From contig JANXDB010000025.1 in assembly GCA_025060015.1 (NCBI GenBank), forward strand, positions 1-64,000: 64,000 nt of DNA, in the 5' to 3' direction. The position numbers and the translations under genes were made by a program. Below, piece by piece: positions 49,138 through 57,934 of the stretch; position 1 is the first letter of the stretch; each line of letters opens with the position of its first letter. The DNA comes from Caldimicrobium sp. Its GTDB lineage: Bacteria; Desulfobacterota; Thermodesulfobacteria; Thermodesulfobacteriales; Thermodesulfobacteriaceae. The notes below the pieces were generated by a model, which was not told the origin of the DNA, ran no database searches, and saw nothing but the letters and a program-made list of their open reading frames with translations.

Positions 49138-50043
49138 TCAAACAAGGGGTATGCCTAATCTCCGAAGATGACTTTCACGTTCTCTCCAGCCCTCAAGGGC
49201 TTTAACCCAAAGATCAAGAAAGATTTTTCTTTTGAGTAGGTGTTCTAACTCTTCCCTTGCTAAGGTTCCGATCTTTTTTAACATCTGTCCACCTTTGCCG
49301 ATGATGATACCCTTTTGAGAGGACCTCTCAACGAAAATCGTTGCCTCAATGTGAAGCACCTTTTTTTCGGGTATCTCCTTAATGGATTCCACTTTTACGG
49401 CAACAGAGTATGGCACCTCCTGATAAGTAAGCATGAATACCTTTTCTCTTATAATCTCTGCCACTTGCAACTTTAAGGGCAAGTCTGTCACATAATCAGG
49501 GTCATAGTAAAAGGGACCCTCTGGGAGAATCTTCTCAAGCTCATTAATTATGATATCAAGACCATCACTTTTTAGACCTGACACAGGGATTATAGCCTCA
49601 AAGAGGTTAAGTTTGGCAAACTGATCGATAACAGGCAAGAGTTCTCTCTTATCACGTAGCAAATCGATTTTGTTTAGGATGAGAAGGGTTGGTTTTGATG
49701 TCTTTTTTATAAGATCAAGAATCCATTGTTCTTCGGATCTTCTATCTGCGACATCCACTACCCACAGGATGGCATCTACCTCTTCTAAAGCCTGCAGGGC
49801 AGATTTGACCATGAGCTTATTGAAGAGAGACTTAGCATCGTGTATCCCTGGTGTATCAACAAAGATTATCTGTAGGTTTTCTCTGGTGTAAATTCCTCTT
49901 ATGTTAAATCGTGTGGTTTGCGGTTTGGAGCTCACAATGGAAACCTTGGTTCCGAGGAGATTGTTTAGCAGGGTGGACTTGCCCACATTCGGAAGTCCGA
50001 TTATTGCCACAATCCCTGATTTGGTATTTATTTGATCCGTCAT
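49138..50043 (-). CDS. era: Era GTPase
   Basis: This 301-residue protein has G1 GLPNVGKST (16-24), G3 DTPGI (near 62), G4 NKID (near 122) and a C-terminal KH RNA-binding domain with the IGKGGQMLKKIG loop (near 240-251). Era binds the 3' end of 16S rRNA and assists 30S assembly. No ribosome binding site is evident before the ATG. It lies 85 bp upstream of the alkaline phosphatase gene and probably belongs to no larger operon. Confidence 0.96.
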   Translation of the reverse strand: MTDQINTKSGIVAIIGLPNVGKSTLLNNLLGTKVSIVSSKPQTTRFNIRGIYTRENLQIIFVDTPGIHDAKSLFNKLMVKSALQALEEVDAILWVVDVADRRSEEQWILDLIKKTSKPTLLILNKIDLLRDKRELLPVIDQFAKLNLFEAIIPVSGLKSDGLDIIINELEKILPEGPFYYDPDYVTDLPLKLQVAEIIREKVFMLTYQEVPYSVAVKVESIKEIPEKKVLHIEATIFVERSSQKGIIIGKGGQMLKKIGTLAREELEHLLKRKIFLDLWVKALEGWRERESHLRRLGIPLV

Positions 50044-50714
50044 ACTGTGTGAGTGTCTTATGTTCTTCGATTTAAGTCCAATTTTAATCTATTGCCCTTA
50101 GATTTGCAAAGGTTCCAAAATTTGTTAATGCACTGATTAAAAAATGAAAACCTCCATTGGTTCTTCAAAAGATAAAATGATATCTATAAAGATAGAGATG
50201 ATAAAAATCAGAGCTCCAAAGTTATGTAATCACAACAATACTCAAATATTGCCTTTGTTCTAAGTTTCTTAGAGCTTTTTGTAAAAGGACTGGGTGAGGT
50301 CCTTCAGGCCAAAGCCTAGCTCAGGCTATATACGATTTTTAGGCTCTCCCTTTTGTTCCATGGTGTTAAAGTGACTAAAAAGCAAGCCCCACATAGAGGA
50401 CGATGCAAAGATCATACCATAAAGAAGGTTGGATTTGGTAAGGAGAAAGTGGGTAGGAGATTTATTTAAAGACAGAAGGAGAAATTCGTTGAAGAAAGGG
50501 AAGCATTAGGTTAAAAAGGTTGAACTTGCACAATCAGATTTTAATTATATAGGTTATCACCCTCGTATAAGATCAGCTAGTTTCTATCATAGGTCTATGA
50601 CTGTTCTCAAAGATGTTACTTTGATGCTTAACTTTAAAGGAGACACAATAAAAATAGGTTAAAAGTTATACTCTGGCTTTCTCAAATAAATATCTTTTCT
50701 TTTATCGATATGAA
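50044..50714. other. 671-bp gene-free stretch with decayed coding sequence
   Basis: No intact gene is visible. The plus strand shows short protein-like runs broken by stops and a frame change: ELFVKGLGEVLQAKA then LRLYTIFRLSLLFHGVKVTKK around 50270-50480, and DFNYIGYHPRIRSASFYHRS around 50535-50660. These look like one decayed gene of about 130 codons, possibly a transposase, but I cannot name the family. A short hairpin AAGGAC-TGGGTGAG-GTCCTT lies at about 50285-50304. Confidence 0.4.
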
Positions 50715-51602
50715 TCACTTGAAAAAGGCGATCACAATGATGCCGAGGAACATAACTAAACTTGCAGAAAGCCTTAAACGAAAGTGTTTCTCTCTAAACA
50801 TATACCACCCAAGTAACACCGCAAAGAGTATGCTTGATCTCTTTAAGGCAATCATATAGGCCGTTTCAACAAGACTTAAAGCCAACATGTGTGAAAGACA
50901 CATCAATGCCTGGGTAAGACCAACAAGAAGAATCACCCTGGTGTTTTGCTTCAAAAACACACCCACGGTCATCGACGGCTTTATCATCCAGAGAACAAAG
51001 GGGGTCACCACTGAAAGAAGAGAAAAATAAATACTCGCAAAGAAAAGGGGATCGGAAAGCAAAATCCCCCGCTTGCCTAACACCGAAGTTACCCCGTAGA
51101 TAAGTGCAGTTACCAATATATAAAAACTCCCCCTCTCCCTCCATATCCCCTTTACTGGACCAAGAAATCCCTCCACCCTCCTCGGAAGGTGAATCATATA
51201 AGCTCCAACGACTATAAGAAGAATGCCTAAAAACCCAGGCAGACTTATACTCTCTCCGAGAATAAGATATCCCGTAAAGATCACAAAAATCGGAGTAAAG
51301 GATAAAAATGGCAAAGAGGCTGAAAGAGGCGATATCTCAATACCTCGCATGTAAGAAAGGGTAGCCATAATCTCTAAAGACAACAGAAGAAGGACGTTTT
51401 GAATGAAATCCCACGTAAGATAGAGATAGACCTCCTTTTTTACTGTCAGATACAGAAGCACAGGGAAAAGAAAGGGAAGAGTTCCAAGGGTTCTGGCAAG
51501 AGCCATTTTTATGTAGCCCTCTTGCCCGAGATATCTCTTGTTTAAAGCATCACTTAGAGCAACGAAAAAACCTGCTGAAAGAGAGAGAATAACCCAAAGC
51601 AT
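50715..51602 (-). CDS. EamA/DMT-superfamily transporter
   Basis: This 295-residue protein has ten predicted membrane helices in two EamA repeats of about 140 residues each. The hallmarks are the loop ending in LGESISLPGFLGILLIVVGAYMI and, in the second half, MFREKHFRLRLSASLVMFLGIIVIAF. Substrates in this family range from amino acids to nucleotide sugars and cannot be predicted. It lies 12 bp downstream of the DNA glycosylase gene on the same strand. Confidence 0.85.
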   Translation of the reverse strand: MLWVILSLSAGFFVALSDALNKRYLGQEGYIKMALARTLGTLPFLFPVLLYLTVKKEVYLYLTWDFIQNVLLLLSLEIMATLSYMRGIEISPLSASLPFLSFTPIFVIFTGYLILGESISLPGFLGILLIVVGAYMIHLPRRVEGFLGPVKGIWRERGSFYILVTALIYGVTSVLGKRGILLSDPLFFASIYFSLLSVVTPFVLWMIKPSMTVGVFLKQNTRVILLVGLTQALMCLSHMLALSLVETAYMIALKRSSILFAVLLGWYMFREKHFRLRLSASLVMFLGIIVIAFFK

Positions 51603-51614
51603 TTAGCAAATGAA

Positions 51615-52268
51615 CTAAAACTTTTGATCTAAAGTTGAAAGAGGACAGTCATCACAACGTGGACTTTGCTTCTTACAATAAGTCTTTCCACAGGCCACAA
51701 AAAGAGCATGAAATTCCTTATACAGAGGAACATCCCTTACTAAGTTCTGATGAAAGATCTCCTGAAGTTCATCGTAGCTTATCACCTCAGGAATAAGCCC
51801 GTGACGACATAGTATTCTATGGGTGTATGCATCAACAACAAAGAAGGGCAGATCTAAGGCATAAAGCAGGATTGAATCGGTAGTCTCCGGGCCAAGCCCC
51901 TTGATAGAAAGTAGTTTTCTTCTCAGTTCCAATGGGTCTTCTTTTCTGAGATTATTAATATCTCCCTCGTATCTATCTGTCAAAAAGGAGACAAAATTCT
52001 TAACTCGCCTTGCTTTAACGTTATAGTATCCGCTAGGACGAATCAAACTGGCAAGACTCTCAACAGAGATCTCTCTCAAAGCCCTCGGCGATAGGAGATT
52101 TTCCCTTTTCAAATTCTCTATTGCCCTCTTCACATTTCCCCAGTTGGTGTTTTGCGTAAGAATTGCCCCAAGACAAACCTCAAAAGGATCCTCTGCAGGC
52201 CACCAACCTTGTGGTCCAAAATGGTCAAATAGCCATCTGTAAATGTCAAGCAAAATATCACCAAGCAT
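51615..52268 (-). CDS. Endonuclease III-related DNA glycosylase (COG2231/MagIII type)
   Basis: The product is 217 residues from ATG 52268. A longer reading to 52463 lies inside the cysteine synthase/CysRS gene and is rejected. The HhH-GPD fold is clear (IKGLGPETTDSILLYAL near 132-148, then FVVDAYTHRI with the catalytic Asp). The Lys used by bifunctional EndoIII in the HhH loop is Glu here, so a monofunctional glycosylase is likely, as in H. pylori MagIII. The tail has four Cys (CX4CX6CX2C) that may bind an Fe-S cluster. It overlaps the upstream fusion gene by 11 bp. Confidence 0.85.
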   Translation of the reverse strand: MLGDILLDIYRWLFDHFGPQGWWPAEDPFEVCLGAILTQNTNWGNVKRAIENLKRENLLSPRALREISVESLASLIRPSGYYNVKARRVKNFVSFLTDRYEGDINNLRKEDPLELRRKLLSIKGLGPETTDSILLYALDLPFFVVDAYTHRILCRHGLIPEVISYDELQEIFHQNLVRDVPLYKEFHALFVACGKTYCKKQSPRCDDCPLSTLDQKF

Positions 52269-54585
52269 AGTGAAAACGTAAGACCCTTGTCCCACTAAAG
52301 GTATCAAAGACACGATAGCCCTTTTCCATAAGCTCAATTCTAATTGCATCTGCCACCTCAAAGTCTCCTCTCTCTTTGGCTTGGTCCCTCCTTTTTGCAA
52401 GCCCAAGGATTTCCTCATCCTCAGATTCCACAGGGAAGGACAGTATCTTAAAAACCTCATCAAAGACCTTCAGTTTTTCAAACAGGGCTTCTTTGAAGCC
52501 AGGTGGAAACCCTCTCTCGCTTCTTCTATAGAGCGTTTTTAGCTGGTTTACAAGCTGTGATATGGCTGCAGGCGTGTTAAGATCCTCCTCTACTGCCTTT
52601 AGCCAATCCCTCTCGAAATCCTCAAGGACCTGCCACACTTCATCCCTATCAGCTTCATTCAAGGGCCTTTCCTCTGCAAAGTGGATGTAAGCAAGAAATA
52701 TCTCAAGTCTTTCGAGGAGTTTTTTAGCATCTTCCAGAGATTTCCACGTAAAGTTCAGAGGACTTCTATAGTGACTCTGAAGCATATACAATCGCAAGGA
52801 CCTTCCATCAAAGCCCCTCTCCTTGACATCCTCAATGGTAAGCCTGTTTTCCGAGGATAACTTTTTACCTTCGTAGTAGGTCAACTCGGTATGTAGCCAG
52901 TAATTAGCTAACTCCTTTCCCGTAAGAGCCTTAGCCACTGCTCTGGTATTCTCGTGATGGGGAAAGATGAGATCTCTACCGCTGGTGTAAAGGTCAAAAT
53001 TGTCACCAAGATATTTCAGAGCAATGGATGCACAGTGAATGTGCCAGGTTGGTCTTACCCTACCAATTGGGGTTTCAAGGAAATATCCTGCTTTCATCTC
53101 CACGATATGAACTCTTTTTAACAGAGCAAAATCGTAAGGCTCCTCCTTTTCATACTCCTCCTGATCTACCCTTAAGCCTCCCTTTAACCCTTTATAGTCT
53201 ACCTTGGCAAGTCTTCCATAGTCTGGAAACCTTGATACATCAAAATACATGGCTGAAAACTTCTCATAGGCCTTGTTTTGACTTTGTAAATGGAAGGCAA
53301 GGTCTCTCATATCCTGCAAATGCTCACTAACCTTGGGATATCCATCTGCTCTGTCTATTCTCAAGTATTCCAGGTCATCGTAAAATTCCTTTTCTACCCT
53401 TGTGGTAAGCTCTTTGAGGGTGACTCCAGACTCTAAGGCTGTCTTTATGGTCTTGTCGTCAAAGTCCGTAAGATTAACGATGTGATAAGGTTTATAACCT
53501 TTAATTTGCAGATATCTCTTCAACACATCTACAGTGAGTAACCTTCTGTATAGACCCAAGTGAGGTCTAACATTGAGGGTGGGACCACAGGTGTAGATCT
53601 TTACCTGCGGTGGATCCTTCGGTAAGAAAAGATCTCTTTTCTGAGTTAGGGTATTAAATAGTGTGAGAATGCTCTTTTGCTCTTCCCTTTCTATACTCCA
53701 AAGGGGAGTTGATAGGTATCTTTCTCCGTTATCTGGAAAGATCACCACTATTAAACCCTCATCAAGTGTGGATGCAAGCTTTAGTGCACCTGCAAGAGTT
53801 GCACCTGAACTCATCCCAACGAATATTCCCTCTCTTCGTGCAAGTTCTCTTGCCATCTCAAAGGCCTCTTCATCGTGGACGTTTATGACCCTATGGAGGA
53901 CCTTTCTATCGAAGATACCAGGTGGAAAGGACTCCTTCATATTCTTTAATCCCTGAATCTTGTGGCCTGGGTAAGGCTCAATCCCAATCACTTTAAAGGG
54001 AAGACCTTTCTCAAGGACATATCGAGCGACACCCATGGCCGTACCAGTCGTTCCTAGACCACAGACCACATGGGTAACTCTTCCCTCGGTCTGAGCCCAG
54101 ATTTCCGGTGCAGTGGTGCGATAGTGCATCTGCCAGTTGGCAGGATTGTTAAACTGATCAGGACAGAAATACTTCTCCGGTTCAGCCCTAACAAGATCAT
54201 AGACATATTCAATAGCCCCGTCCGTTCCCTTTGATGCAGGGGTTAGGATAATCTCAGCACCATAGGCCTGCATGATCTTTCTTCTTTCAAGGGATGCAGA
54301 CTCAGGCATGGCAATGACGCATCTGTATCCCTTGGAGGCACAAACCATGGCAAGACCGATACCCGTATTACCACTAGAGGCCTCAATGACAACCTTATCT
54401 GGGCTCAGGAGGCCTCTACCTTCAGCATCCTCAATCATGGCAAGAGCAATTCTATCTTTAATAGAACCACCGGGATTTTGCCCTTCGATTTTTCCCCAGA
54501 TTTCTACGGAACTCTTGACTTTAATCCTATTTAGTTTAACAATAGGAGTATTACCGATTTTTGCCAGTATGCTATGATATCTCAT
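52258..54585 (-). CDS. Fusion of cysteine synthase (CysK/CysM) and a divergent cysteinyl-tRNA synthetase
   Basis: This is a 775-residue protein. Residues 1-300 are a complete O-acetylserine sulfhydrylase: PLP lysine K43 (GGSIKDR), substrate loop SSGNTG (70-75), QFNNPANW, and phosphate loop GLGTTG (176-181). Residues 325-775 align along the whole CysRS, including the DALR region and the C-terminal RDQAKERGDFEVADAIR helix. In the CysRS part, HIGN reads HLGL (342-345), KMSKS reads KLSSE (575-579) and the position of the fourth zinc ligand (E238 in E. coli) is T547; C333, C518 and H543 remain. Aminoacylation is therefore uncertain. GGAGG precedes the ATG. No serine acetyltransferase is nearby. 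Confidence 0.92.
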   Translation of the reverse strand: MRYHSILAKIGNTPIVKLNRIKVKSSVEIWGKIEGQNPGGSIKDRIALAMIEDAEGRGLLSPDKVVIEASSGNTGIGLAMVCASKGYRCVIAMPESASLERRKIMQAYGAEIILTPASKGTDGAIEYVYDLVRAEPEKYFCPDQFNNPANWQMHYRTTAPEIWAQTEGRVTHVVCGLGTTGTAMGVARYVLEKGLPFKVIGIEPYPGHKIQGLKNMKESFPPGIFDRKVLHRVINVHDEEAFEMARELARREGIFVGMSSGATLAGALKLASTLDEGLIVVIFPDNGERYLSTPLWSIEREEQKSILTLFNTLTQKRDLFLPKDPPQVKIYTCGPTLNVRPHLGLYRRLLTVDVLKRYLQIKGYKPYHIVNLTDFDDKTIKTALESGVTLKELTTRVEKEFYDDLEYLRIDRADGYPKVSEHLQDMRDLAFHLQSQNKAYEKFSAMYFDVSRFPDYGRLAKVDYKGLKGGLRVDQEEYEKEEPYDFALLKRVHIVEMKAGYFLETPIGRVRPTWHIHCASIALKYLGDNFDLYTSGRDLIFPHHENTRAVAKALTGKELANYWLHTELTYYEGKKLSSENRLTIEDVKERGFDGRSLRLYMLQSHYRSPLNFTWKSLEDAKKLLERLEIFLAYIHFAEERPLNEADRDEVWQVLEDFERDWLKAVEEDLNTPAAISQLVNQLKTLYRRSERGFPPGFKEALFEKLKVFDEVFKILSFPVESEDEEILGLAKRRDQAKERGDFEVADAIRIELMEKGYRVFDTFSGTRVLRFHYAW

Positions 54586-55485
54586 AAAGGAGCCTCCGCC
54601 CTTAGCCTAATCCTATTGTATCTTACTTTGTCTTTCTCACAAGGTCAAAGCTTTACCACCTTAAAGCCACACAAAGCCATTTACTTTCAAAACCAGATCT
54701 ACAAACTCAAAGAGAATGATACCCTGATTGATCTTGCTGTTACCTTCAAACTAGGCTATCAGGCCTTGACCTTGGCAAATAGAGATGTTGACCCTTGGGT
54801 TCCTCCAAAGGAGGCCGAAATTATCCTTCCTTTTCAAGTTTTAATACCCAAAAACTTTTTTCTGTTAACAAGACCTTACATCCTCATAAACCTCCCTGAA
54901 ATGAGACTTTACTACTTTAACAGAGATAGCTTTTTGGTCTTTCCCATAGGAATTGGGGACCAAGGAAAGCTCCCACCCCCAGGTCTTTACCACATCAAAA
55001 ACAAAAAGACCAGACCCTTTTGGTATCCCACCGAGTCCATCAGAGCAGAGGAACCAGACCTACCAAAAGTAGTGCCACCTGGCCCAGATAACCCCATGGG
55101 AGAATATGCTCTCTATCTCGATCGAGGTCTCTATGCTATCCATGGCACCAACAAGCCTCACAGCATTGGAAGAAGAACTACCCATGGATGCTTTAGACTC
55201 TATCCAGAACACATCGAAAAACTTTACCAGATCGTCCCCCTGGGAACACCGGTTTTTGTGATCTACGAACCCTATAAAATCGCCATAGAGGATGATAAAA
55301 TCTATCTCCAGGCCTACCCCGACATAGAAAAACGCAAAAACAATCCCATAAAGTATATCCTCCAAACCCTTGACTCTCTAACAGAGAGGCATGGTTTAAG
55401 ATATCAAGTGAATCTCATTAAGCTTGACAACGCCCTTGAAAAAACAGACGGCTTAGTGCACCAGATTGGCATTATAATTAGATAG
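54574..55485 (+). CDS. L,D-transpeptidase (YkuD domain), secreted
   Basis: This 303-residue protein has an N-terminal signal sequence (LSLILLYLTLSFSQG). A LysM-like segment follows (KLKENDTLIDLAVTFKLGYQALTLAN, near 44-69), then a YkuD catalytic domain (about 100-240) with HGTNKPHSIGRRTTHGCFRL. The nucleophile is the Cys in THGCFRL, where Ser-Thr and Ile-Phe substitutions are mild. It should make 3-3 peptidoglycan crosslinks or attach lipoproteins. The ATG lies inside the divergent fusion gene (12-bp head overlap) and lacks a ribosome binding site. The stop overlaps lpxC by 8 bp. Confidence 0.9.
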   Translation: MISHKGASALSLILLYLTLSFSQGQSFTTLKPHKAIYFQNQIYKLKENDTLIDLAVTFKLGYQALTLANRDVDPWVPPKEAEIILPFQVLIPKNFFLLTRPYILINLPEMRLYYFNRDSFLVFPIGIGDQGKLPPPGLYHIKNKKTRPFWYPTESIRAEEPDLPKVVPPGPDNPMGEYALYLDRGLYAIHGTNKPHSIGRRTTHGCFRLYPEHIEKLYQIVPLGTPVFVIYEPYKIAIEDDKIYLQAYPDIEKRKNNPIKYILQTLDSLTERHGLRYQVNLIKLDNALEKTDGLVHQIGIIIR

Positions 55486-56377
55486 GGGATCTTTTTCTCT
55501 TAGGCACCCATAAAAAAGTTAGGGCTCTAGACTCCACTTCCTCGAGATATCCGGCTTCATACATGGTTTTCAGGGCATCTAAGTGCAACTTGTGTCCTGA
55601 CATGTCCGCCCTGATCTCGGCAACAAGAGGATAACCAATGGTGAAAAGATCTCCCACTATGTCTAAGATCTTGTGGCGAACGAACTCATCCTTTGATCTT
55701 AAGCCCTCTTTATTGAGGACCTTTTCTTCATCCAGAACAATGGCATTGGACAGATTTCCGCCTTTGATTATGCCCTGCCTCTTTCTCTCCTCAAGTATTC
55801 TCTTAAAACCAAAAGTTCTGGCAAAGGAGATCTCATTGATGTAATCTCTGGGTGTTGCGGTAAAATCAAGGCTTTGTAATCCGATCACTGGGTGATCAAA
55901 GTTGATTGTGGCATGAATCATAAGCCTTGATGAAGGCTTAAATTTTATCCTTCCAACACCATTTTCCATGCTGAAAGGTTTTCTTAAGAGGTACTTCCTT
56001 CTCGCAGCTGGCAACAGACGATATCCACTTTCCTGAATCTTGCGAACTATTAAAAGAGTTGACCCATCGAGAAGAGGAATCTCCTCTCCAAAGACCCTGA
56101 TAAGAGCATTGTCAATTTGTAAACCATGAAGGGCAGAAAGTAGATGTTCTATCAAAGTTATTTCATGGGTTCCATCAGTAAGAAGAACTGCTCCCTCCAA
56201 GGCAATAGCATTTTTCAACGAAAGCTTTATCCTCGGTCTGTGTGGTAAGTCTGACCTCTCAAAAACTATACCCTCGTTCTCCCCCAAAGGATGGATCTCC
56301 ACCCTTATCTCCTTACCACTATAAATGCCCTCGCCCTCAAAAATTACCTTATCTGCAACTGTTCTTTGATACTCCAT
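55478..56377 (-). CDS. lpxC: UDP-3-O-acyl-N-acetylglucosamine deacetylase LpxC
   Basis: This 299-residue zinc deacetylase has the zinc ligands in EHLLSALHGL (His near 78), VRHKILDIVGDL (His and Asp near 235-239) and the catalytic GHKLH (near 262-266). The N-terminal Gly-rich LPxC block TVADKVIFEGEGIYSGK is typical. It performs the committed step of lipid A synthesis, supporting a Gram-negative outer membrane together with lpxD. A weak AAGGGC precedes the ATG. The 285-bp gap upstream carries repeated heptamers. Confidence 0.96.
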   Translation of the reverse strand: MEYQRTVADKVIFEGEGIYSGKEIRVEIHPLGENEGIVFERSDLPHRPRIKLSLKNAIALEGAVLLTDGTHEITLIEHLLSALHGLQIDNALIRVFGEEIPLLDGSTLLIVRKIQESGYRLLPAARRKYLLRKPFSMENGVGRIKFKPSSRLMIHATINFDHPVIGLQSLDFTATPRDYINEISFARTFGFKRILEERKRQGIIKGGNLSNAIVLDEEKVLNKEGLRSKDEFVRHKILDIVGDLFTIGYPLVAEIRADMSGHKLHLDALKTMYEAGYLEEVESRALTFLWVPKRKRSPI

Positions 56378-56533
56378 AAAAAAGCCCTTACATCAAAATG
56401 AAAGCCTTTCTCCTCTCTTTATAGCAAATTTCTTGCCTATTTTACTGCATGGACAAAGCCCTTTCACCGGCTTGGTAAGGGAGACTAACTTTCTAATCTT
56501 GGCAAAAAATCTCTGTCCATGTGTTGTTAAAAT

Positions 56534-56561
56534 AATACACAGTGTATTTTTCAAAATACAC
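56534..56561. promoter_or_regulatory. Alternating heptamer array upstream of lpxC
   Basis: AATACAC (56534-56540), GTGTATT (56542-56548) and AATACAC (56555-56561) form two overlapping perfect dyads. They lie about 160-185 bp upstream of the lpxC start. They are a candidate operator or RNA hairpin; no regulator is assigned. The rest of the 56378-56662 gap contains no gene I can support. Confidence 0.4.
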
Positions 56562-56662
56562 CTCTTGACTCTCCATTGTAGACTCACCGGTCTAAGCTTT
56601 CTAGAGGGGTTTTATCTCTTCCTAAAGTGAGACTCAAGATGGTGTGATACAGGTTCTTGTAA

Positions 56663-57934
56663 TTAAAGGCGAAAGACCCCCTCTCCGAGGATTACGGCTT
56701 CAACCTTGCCTTTGATTGTTCTACCTAGTAAGGGAGTATTTTTACTCTTTGACAGAATGCACTCTTCTGTCACCACCCAGTCCTTTTCTGGGTTGAAGAT
56801 AACAACCTCTGCAGGGCTTCCCTCTCTAAAATTCGGAGGGTCCACTTTTATGACCCTTGCCGGATTGGTGATTAGGTACTCAAGAAGTTTTTGTTGGGAC
56901 AAGAACCCCTGTCGCACAAGATCATAACTTAGAGGCAGTAAAAACTGAAGGCCAATCATCCCAAAACTTGCCAGTTCAAACTCTACCTCCTTTTCAAGTG
57001 GGCTATGAGGAGCATGATCGCTTGCAATGACCTCAATTAAACCCTCCTTCAGCGCATGCTTTATGGCCTGGACGTCTTCCTCTGTGCGAAGAGGGGGGTT
57101 AACCTTTGCTATAGTGTTATATCCATCAACTTCTGTCTCGGTAAGGGTAAAATAGTGAGGACAGGTTTCAGCAGTAAATGATAGTCCCTCCTCTTTTGCC
57201 CATCTAAGAAAGGGGATACTCTCCTTCACAGAGAGATGAGCCAGGTGAAGATAAGAGTTTGTCTCCTTTAACAGCAAAAGATCCCTAACAACTGCTATTG
57301 TCTCTGCAGAGAAGGGAATCCCCTTTAAACCTAGCTTTGCGGAGAGGATGCCTTCGTTAATCTGTCCTCTGTTGCTGAGATTAGGCTCCTCACAGTGGGA
57401 GATCAAAGGAAGATCAAAATTTTTAGCATAAAGAAGGGCCTTTTTCATGAGGGAGGCATCAGAAACCCATTTACCATCATCAGAGAGGGCTACCACCCCT
57501 GCCTCTTTAAGCCTTCCAAACTCCGTAAGCTCCTTTCCAGATTGGCCTTTGGTAATCGTAGCGATGGGGTAAACCTTGACATGTGCCCTTTCTCGTGCTT
57601 TCTCAAGGATGTATGAAGTAACCTCGGGGGAGTCGTTTGGTGGCTTAGTATTTGGCATGCATGCCACACGAAGCACCCCTCCATGAAGCGCAGCCCTTGT
57701 GCCACTCTCTATGTCCTCCTTCCACTCCTCCCCTGGTTCCCTTAAATGCACATGTATGTCCACAATACCGGGTATGACAAGACATCCCCTGGCGGAGATG
57801 GTATCAACCTTCTCAGGATATTCTATAGAGGGCGCAACGCCCCTTATAGTCCCATCCACAATTAACAGGTCTCCCACCAAATCAAGCCCTAAGCTCGGAT
57901 CCAGAATTCTCCCTTCCTTGATAAGTCTTACCAT
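56663..57934 (-). CDS. pyrC: Dihydroorotase
   Basis: This 423-residue amidohydrolase of the type I (PyrC/PyrX) kind has the metal motif DIHVHLREPG (near 60-69) and further metal His in ISHCEEP and HLAHLS. The catalytic Asp is in VIASDHAPH (near 305). The active-site Lys of some binuclear enzymes is not obvious in this segment. It cyclises carbamoyl-aspartate in pyrimidine synthesis. It begins 2 bp after pyrB; the pyrB-pyrC order is typical of noncatalytic-complex partners, and the conserved motifs suggest it is itself active. Confidence 0.94.
   Translation of the reverse strand: MVRLIKEGRILDPSLGLDLVGDLLIVDGTIRGVAPSIEYPEKVDTISARGCLVIPGIVDIHVHLREPGEEWKEDIESGTRAALHGGVLRVACMPNTKPPNDSPEVTSYILEKARERAHVKVYPIATITKGQSGKELTEFGRLKEAGVVALSDDGKWVSDASLMKKALLYAKNFDLPLISHCEEPNLSNRGQINEGILSAKLGLKGIPFSAETIAVVRDLLLLKETNSYLHLAHLSVKESIPFLRWAKEEGLSFTAETCPHYFTLTETEVDGYNTIAKVNPPLRTEEDVQAIKHALKEGLIEVIASDHAPHSPLEKEVEFELASFGMIGLQFLLPLSYDLVRQGFLSQQKLLEYLITNPARVIKVDPPNFREGSPAEVVIFNPEKDWVVTEECILSKSKNTPLLGRTIKGKVEAVILGEGVFRL

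Follow-up and report, generated by a model that had tools for sequence, protein, structure and literature searches.

Why should an enzyme that makes cysteine be joined, in one polypeptide, to a cysteinyl-tRNA synthetase (CysRS) whose catalytic signatures have decayed? The question is raised by a gene on the minus strand of a 64,000-nucleotide stretch (the window) of contig JANXDB010000025.1, from the Caldimicrobium sp. assembly GCA_025060015.1. The gene is an uninterrupted open reading frame (ORF) at 52258-54585 with an ATG start, and its 775-residue product matches the Pfam families PALP (residues 8-285, E 4e-77) and tRNA-synt_1e (residues 324-621, E 2e-75); the plus strand across the same interval carries many stops. 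The initial annotation had recognised this single 775-codon frame without stating its strand, and had offered two explanations: an active CysRS to which new cysteine is channelled, or a module that senses cysteine or tRNA and thereby controls the synthase. We favour a narrower form of the second, with a probability of about 0.58, in which the protein would be a cysteine synthase whose attached pseudo-CysRS binds tRNA-Cys and serves it as an allosteric gauge. A frameshift or assembly artefact is ruled out as the source of the fusion, as no stop or frameshift separates the domains and the frame is intact in more than 100 other genomes.

The CysRS-like modules of 97 fusions from Desulfobacterota, the phylum of the window genome, were aligned with 88 standalone CysRS and E. 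coli CysS, and E. coli numbering is used for conserved positions. For the E. coli CysS and CysM reference sequences, the CysS numbering is consistent with the motifs 73KIIK76 and 266KMSK269 in PMC5660078, and the CysM numbering with a Protein Data Bank alignment. In the window protein HLGL stands where functional CysRS have H-x-G-[HN], KLSSE replaces KMSKS with loss of the second lysine, and the zinc ligand Glu238 is Thr; the ligands Cys28, Cys209 and His234 are kept, as is Trp205. All of these had been reported from the single sequence and are borne out by the alignment. Two further features had escaped the initial annotation: His224, invariant in standalone CysRS, is Phe or Tyr in the window clade, and an extra Arg lies right behind the HIGH motif (HLGLYRR) in the window protein and all its relatives. 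The window clade consists of 17 proteins with HLGL/KLSSE, Glu238Thr and His224Phe/Tyr, and has lost Trp184, Gly201 and Gln241 as well as His224, each of which is found in 99-100% of standalone CysRS. The NCBIfam cysS model TIGR00435 matches the whole length of the module (307-770) but at 323 bits, below its cut-off of 340. The anticodon-domain residues Arg/Lys427, aromatic 432, Asp436, Arg439 and Asp451 are all present in the window protein, and the C-terminal tRNA-binding part is retained in a full-length module, as had been proposed.

Across the family, the second KMSKS lysine is present in 87 of the 88 standalone CysRS and, as aligned, in two of the 97 fusions; these two lysines (in L183 and L203) are misalignments within unrelated sequence where the motif has been erased, and the true count is 0/97. 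The second His or Asn of HIGH is found in 88/88 standalone proteins and 12/97 fusions, and the first His in 88/88 and 62/97. Retention in the zinc and cysteine pocket of the fusions is 81/97 for Cys28, 85/97 for Cys209, 97/97 for His234, 53/97 for Glu238 and 78/97 for Thr68, with all four zinc ligands together in 51/97. In the anticodon domain Arg423, Arg/Lys427, aromatic 432, Asp436 and Arg439 are each kept in 96/97 fusions and Asp451 in 95/97; the five-residue set at 427, 432, 436, 439 and 451 is complete in 95/97, compared with 86/88 standalone CysRS. When 57 diverse full-length fusions are compared, Arg733, Asp746 and Arg749 of the window protein fall in invariant columns. The erosion is graded. 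HxGN persists alongside KMSRS in L116, L195 and L199, HLGL/KMSFS is found in Thermodesulfatator-type proteins, and other fusions lack any recognisable motif. The eleven most eroded fusions have lost HIGH, KMSKS, Cys28, Cys209 and Thr68 altogether (0/11), and the anticodon set is complete in all 11. Read from the alignment, the order of decay is HIGH and KMSKS first and the zinc and cysteine pocket next, lineage by lineage.

New invariants have appeared in the old catalytic core. The Arg directly behind HIGH (E. coli position 43) is present in 97/97 fusions and in 0/88 standalone CysRS, and Arg186, Lys193, Asp170 and Tyr173 are further fusion-specific invariants. Together with the near-uniform changes of HIGH, KMSKS and the zinc ligand within the window clade, they speak for remodelling under selection, rather than drift, in that clade. 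Ratios of nonsynonymous to synonymous substitution (dN/dS) for the CysRS half of close pairs are mostly 0.05-0.16, although two distant pairs reach values of up to ~0.3 and a near-identical pair has 0.23; the ratios for the CysM half are about 0.02-0.18, the CysRS half being about twice as high. Mean identity across 13 genomes is 73% for the CysM half, 61% for standalone CysRS and 53% for the fused module, the mean length of which is 481 aa compared with 492 aa in standalone CysRS. The fused module is clearly under purifying selection, weaker than that on a working CysRS and than that on the CysM half. An AlphaFold2 model built on 57 family members has a mean predicted local distance difference test score (pLDDT) of 92 and a predicted TM-score (pTM) of 0.64; the linker is weak at 299-302 and the loop at 467-481 is disordered. 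Foldseek places the C-terminal module on tRNA-bound E. coli CysRS (1u0b) with a TMt of 0.81 over 489 columns.

The N-terminal half, by contrast with the module, has its catalytic motifs complete and appears to be a working cysteine synthase, in agreement with the initial annotation. Lys43 in GGSIKDR, SSGNTG and GTTGT are all intact in the window protein, and the lysine that binds pyridoxal phosphate (PLP), SxGNTG and GTTGT are present in 97/97 aligned fusions. The NCBIfam cysKM model TIGR01136 scores 380.5 bits, above its cut-off of 344.15, and foldseek matches this half to CysM 2bhs (TMt 0.95, 47% identity), with M. tuberculosis CysM 3dki also among the matches.

The window genome (Thermodesulfobacteriaceae, 1.6 Mb, 99% complete) has its nearest named relative in Caldimicrobium, where the fusion protein is 80% identical. 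A search for a second cysS, which had been suggested as a check, found a canonical standalone gene with HLGH, KMSKS and all zinc ligands on a different contig, and the fusion is therefore ruled out as the organism's sole CysRS. A search across 395 genomes spread over the phylum found the full-length fusion in at least 150, from many families. The initial annotation had named as refuting a finding that architecture and substitutions are common in functional CysRS; the architecture is common in the phylum, but the substitutions are unseen in standalone CysRS. Among 80 fusion genomes covered by a CysRS search, 77 have a second CysRS-family gene; the exceptions (G245, G040 and G111) are each at most 82% complete. 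In three others that were checked (G191, G137 and G127) the second gene is of another CysRS type, outside the usual bacterial group or with an extension. We also note a CysRS with HxGN/KMAKS and a ~240-aa C-terminal extension in family f23 (L229 2005-4191, plus strand, also L230 and L231; genomes G055, G092 and G127); judged by eye, the extension looks like a family-2 glycosyltransferase.

In a CysRS tree a branch with 100/100 support separates all sampled Desulfobacterota fusions from the standalone CysRS and an archaeal fusion. Two such archaeal fusions were found in DPANN genomes (L033 1320-3635 in G414, and L222 in G581). The CysRS half of the former shares ~60% identity with standalone CysRS of DPANN archaea. 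In several DPANN genomes cysM and cysS are neighbours, and G562, G428 and G520 have the pair close together. A single origin that includes the archaeal fusion is disfavoured (p-AU 0.02 for a joint clade, tested for G414), the archaeal halves resembling DPANN standalone CysRS, and the DPANN fusions look independent of those in Desulfobacterota. In the G414 fusion HIGN and KMSKS are intact and a search of that genome found no other CysRS, so that this protein may be a bifunctional, active enzyme.

ATP chemistry and then cysteine chemistry lost, the tRNA end kept, fusion to an enzyme that makes cysteine and a real CysRS alongside together point to a tRNA-Cys-dependent regulator. No other functional part is as well kept as the anticodon-domain residues, which favours tRNA over cysteine as the sensed ligand; of the sensor proposed in the initial annotation, the tRNA alternative thus fits the evidence best. 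In such a mechanism the module would no longer charge tRNA in this lineage, and tRNA-Cys would dock through the intact anticodon-binding domain. Cysteine shortage would raise the amount of uncharged tRNA-Cys, the binding of which may shift the module so that synthase activity goes up, both the coupling and its direction being conjectural. Alternatively, charged and uncharged 3' ends might be told apart in the remodelled active-site cleft. Abundant cysteine or Cys-tRNA would reverse the effect.

Several points weigh against the gauge. The window clade keeps His37, Gly39, Lys266, Cys28, Cys209, His234, Thr68 and Trp205, so that some residual CysRS activity is possible there. One near-complete metagenome-assembled genome of the window's order (G031, 98% complete) was searched for a standalone cysS and none was found; its fusion (L209, with HLGL and KMSHT) is the only CysRS-like gene found there, so that either a contig is missing or this version of the fusion is still active. 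At a pTM of 0.64 the model does not define how the halves sit relative to each other, and no allosteric path can be read from it. Residues 427, 432, 436 and 451, putative anticodon contacts according to the work on 1U0B, could instead be kept for folding.

Some of these same observations favour a bifunctional enzyme, in which the CysRS half would charge tRNA-Cys by an unusual chemistry with new cysteine channelled to it. The retained catalytic and pocket residues of the window clade, including three zinc ligands, suit such an enzyme, as do G031 and the separate DPANN fusions, and human TyrRS is active with KMSSS. However, none of the 97 Desulfobacterota fusions has the second KMSKS lysine, four near-universal residues (His224, Trp184, Gly201 and Gln241) are lost in the window clade, a canonical cysS coexists in the window genome and in almost all other fusion genomes, and the fusion is kept even where every activation motif has been erased. 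The channelling proposal of the initial annotation is therefore disfavoured, and we consider it decidedly unlikely. The kept Cys28, Cys209, His234, Thr68 and Trp205 would equally suit a module that responds to cysteine, or to another ligand resembling an amino acid, and exerts feedback on the synthase with no tRNA involved. The invariant Arg beside HIGH suggests a remodelled pocket of this kind, and PMC9437257 and PMC9734150 describe a precedent in HisZ, a synthetase paralogue that mediates feedback. Such a small-molecule sensor is nevertheless unlikely: its pocket is destroyed in the eleven most eroded fusions, all of which keep the anticodon domain, and that domain would be superfluous for sensing cysteine.

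Retention of the anticodon domain is also what would be expected of a tether, without allostery, that keeps cysteine synthesis close to tRNA-Cys or to the real CysRS, or that stabilises an oligomer, and the twofold higher dN/dS of the CysRS half resembles the relaxation of a scaffold. Strict invariants in the old catalytic core (the five named above) imply a definite job for that core, and we hold a tether to be improbable. A role in making cysteine persulfide (CysSSH), with the KIIK and KMSK lysines and PLP acting beside a source of cysteine, would suit the hosts, which are relatives that disproportionate sulfur or reduce sulfate. E. coli and human CysRS make CysSSH by means of 73KIIK76 and 266KMSK269, and each of these lysines is required in the E. 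coli enzyme (PMC5660078). Lys269 is absent in the fusions, Lys76 is kept in ~13% and Lys73 in 62%, and with required lysines missing this role is rejected as very unlikely. An MshC-like ligase is likewise rejected, the TIGR03447 score being 155 bits with a cut-off of 485.

The fusion also bears on how its host obtains cysteine. A search of the window genome found no cysteine synthase besides the fusion, which thus serves as its only one, and no gene for serine acetyltransferase (cysE), so that CysE is an unlikely source of the acyl acceptor. We note that a recognisable cysE is missing from most of the order, complete genomes included; it was found in 3/26 sampled genomes of the order, and a standalone cysteine synthase match adjoins it in each. 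O-phosphoserine, which established pathways make by SerC, is probably the acceptor in the window genome, although an unrecognised (for example MetX-like) serine acyltransferase might supply another. Lys214-Asn215 of the synthase half is a candidate phosphate site that may set specificity for the acyl acceptor (O-phosphoserine). More widely, cysE is present in 22/45 fusion genomes and in 29/35 genomes without the fusion (Fisher p 0.002, relatedness ignored). A general replacement of CysE-dependent synthesis by the fusion is only half right, since 22 of the 45 fusion genomes carry cysE.

Coordinates of the gene and of its parts are collected in the table.

Table. Features of the fusion gene in the window. 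Residues are numbered in the 775-aa protein unless marked as E. coli positions.
Feature	Coordinates	Strand	Evidence
775-aa fusion gene, CysM-type cysteine synthase and pseudo-cysteinyl-tRNA synthetase	52258..54585	-	ORF, Pfam, NCBIfam, AlphaFold2 pLDDT 92
PLP-dependent cysteine synthase half, residues 1-296	53698..54585	-	intact catalytic motifs; foldseek 2bhs
Lys214-Asn215, replacing Arg210-Arg211 of E. coli CysM	53941..53946	-	alignment, invariant in 97/97 fusions
Short linker, residues 297-306	53668..53697	-	low pLDDT at 299-302
Full-length CysRS-like module including C-terminal anticodon-binding domain, residues 307-772	52270..53667	-	Pfam, NCBIfam, foldseek 1u0b
Cys333 (E. coli zinc ligand Cys28), kept	53587..53589	-	alignment
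HLGL, residues 342-345, replacing HIGH/HIGN, second His/Asn lost	53551..53562	-	alignment
Arg348 beside HIGH, fusion-specific signature	53542..53544	-	alignment, 97/97 fusions and 0/88 standalone
Cys518 (zinc ligand Cys209) within TWHIHC, kept	53032..53034	-	alignment
His543 (zinc ligand His234, kept) to Thr547 (zinc ligand Glu238, lost)	52945..52959	-	alignment
KLSSE, residues 575-579, replacing KMSKS, second Lys lost	52849..52863	-	alignment
Arg733, Asp746, Arg749 and Asp761 (E. coli Arg423, Asp436, Arg439 and Asp451), anticodon-domain signature kept	52303..52389	-	alignment

A divergent LysM/L,D-transpeptidase-like ORF starts at 54574 on the plus strand and overlaps the fusion gene head-to-head by 12 bases (54574-54585); probably either the start of one gene is misplaced or the promoter of each is located within the other. 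On the other side, an Endonuclease III-like ORF (51615-52463, minus strand), to which a TTG start is assigned, extends into the 3' end of the fusion gene, and its true start is likely to be further downstream, close to MLGDILLDIYRW. The window was searched for tRNA genes and none was found. Genes flanking the fusion are common within the family only and not across the phylum, which rules out a conserved operon partner; with no operon conserved across families, the partner of the module is the fused domain itself.

A search of the open-access literature, with subscription journals outside its coverage, found no description of this fusion, and the searched passages of a review of synthetase paralogues (PMC9437257) and of two reviews of cysteine coding (PMC8762117, PMC5424206) do not mention it; it is apparently undescribed in the open literature. 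If the gauge is real, an enzyme that makes an amino acid reads the demand of protein synthesis straight from tRNA. To our knowledge, bacterial control of this kind acts through RNA (T-boxes, attenuation) and the ribosome, and not through a tRNA-gated metabolic enzyme. Direct gating of a biosynthetic enzyme by the tRNA for the amino acid that it makes, without RNA switch, kinase or ribosome, is a tentative proposal to which we would give somewhat less than even odds. In this family the synthetase sites range from near-intact to fully erased while the tRNA-reading domain stays constant, a natural series in which the order of conversion from synthetase to regulator can be traced. The family also carries a risk for annotation: where these proteins are labelled CysRS or plain cysteine synthase, the cysteine pathways of sulfur bacteria that lack CysE may be misread.

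Among known systems, standalone CysRS (TIGR00435) share with the module its fold, its length, three of the four zinc ligands (in the window clade) and the anticodon-domain residues. The module differs in lacking the second KMSKS lysine, the second His/Asn of HIGH, His224, Trp184, Gly201, Gln241 and Glu238, in having Arg beside HIGH and in being joined to a cysteine synthase. The N-terminal half resembles CysM and the O-phosphoserine sulfhydrylases, from which it differs in being fused and in having Lys-Asn in place of Arg-Arg at E. coli positions 210-211; its acceptor is putative. MshC is likewise a CysRS-derived paralogue outside translation; it too lacks the fourth zinc ligand, but its adenylation motifs are kept and its anticodon domain is not complete. 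The closest parallel is HisZ, which the fusion may resemble in its way of working. HisZ is a class II protein, a separate subunit without an anticodon domain, whereas the fusion module has the class I tRNA-synt_1e fold, is covalently attached and is not homologous to HisZ or HisRS. As described in PMC9437257 and PMC9734150, HisZ is a catalytically dead synthetase paralogue that serves the biosynthetic enzyme for the same amino acid (HisG) alongside the real synthetase, and the fusion shows the same combination of lost activation motifs and a coexisting true synthetase. The opposite end is retained, however: the fusion keeps the anticodon domain and loses the amino-acid activation motifs. A second, unusual CysRS is already reported from the same phylum: CysRS* of Desulfobacterales, which lacks an anticodon domain and charges SelC* (Mukai 2017, cited in PMC9437257). 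The fusion appears to be its reverse, with the anticodon domain kept. In GCN2, a eukaryotic kinase, and in T-boxes, which are RNA, uncharged tRNA serves as the gauge of an amino acid. In the present case, where an Rfam scan of 50000-57000 found neither a T-box nor any other known RNA element, the gauge would instead sit inside the biosynthetic enzyme itself.

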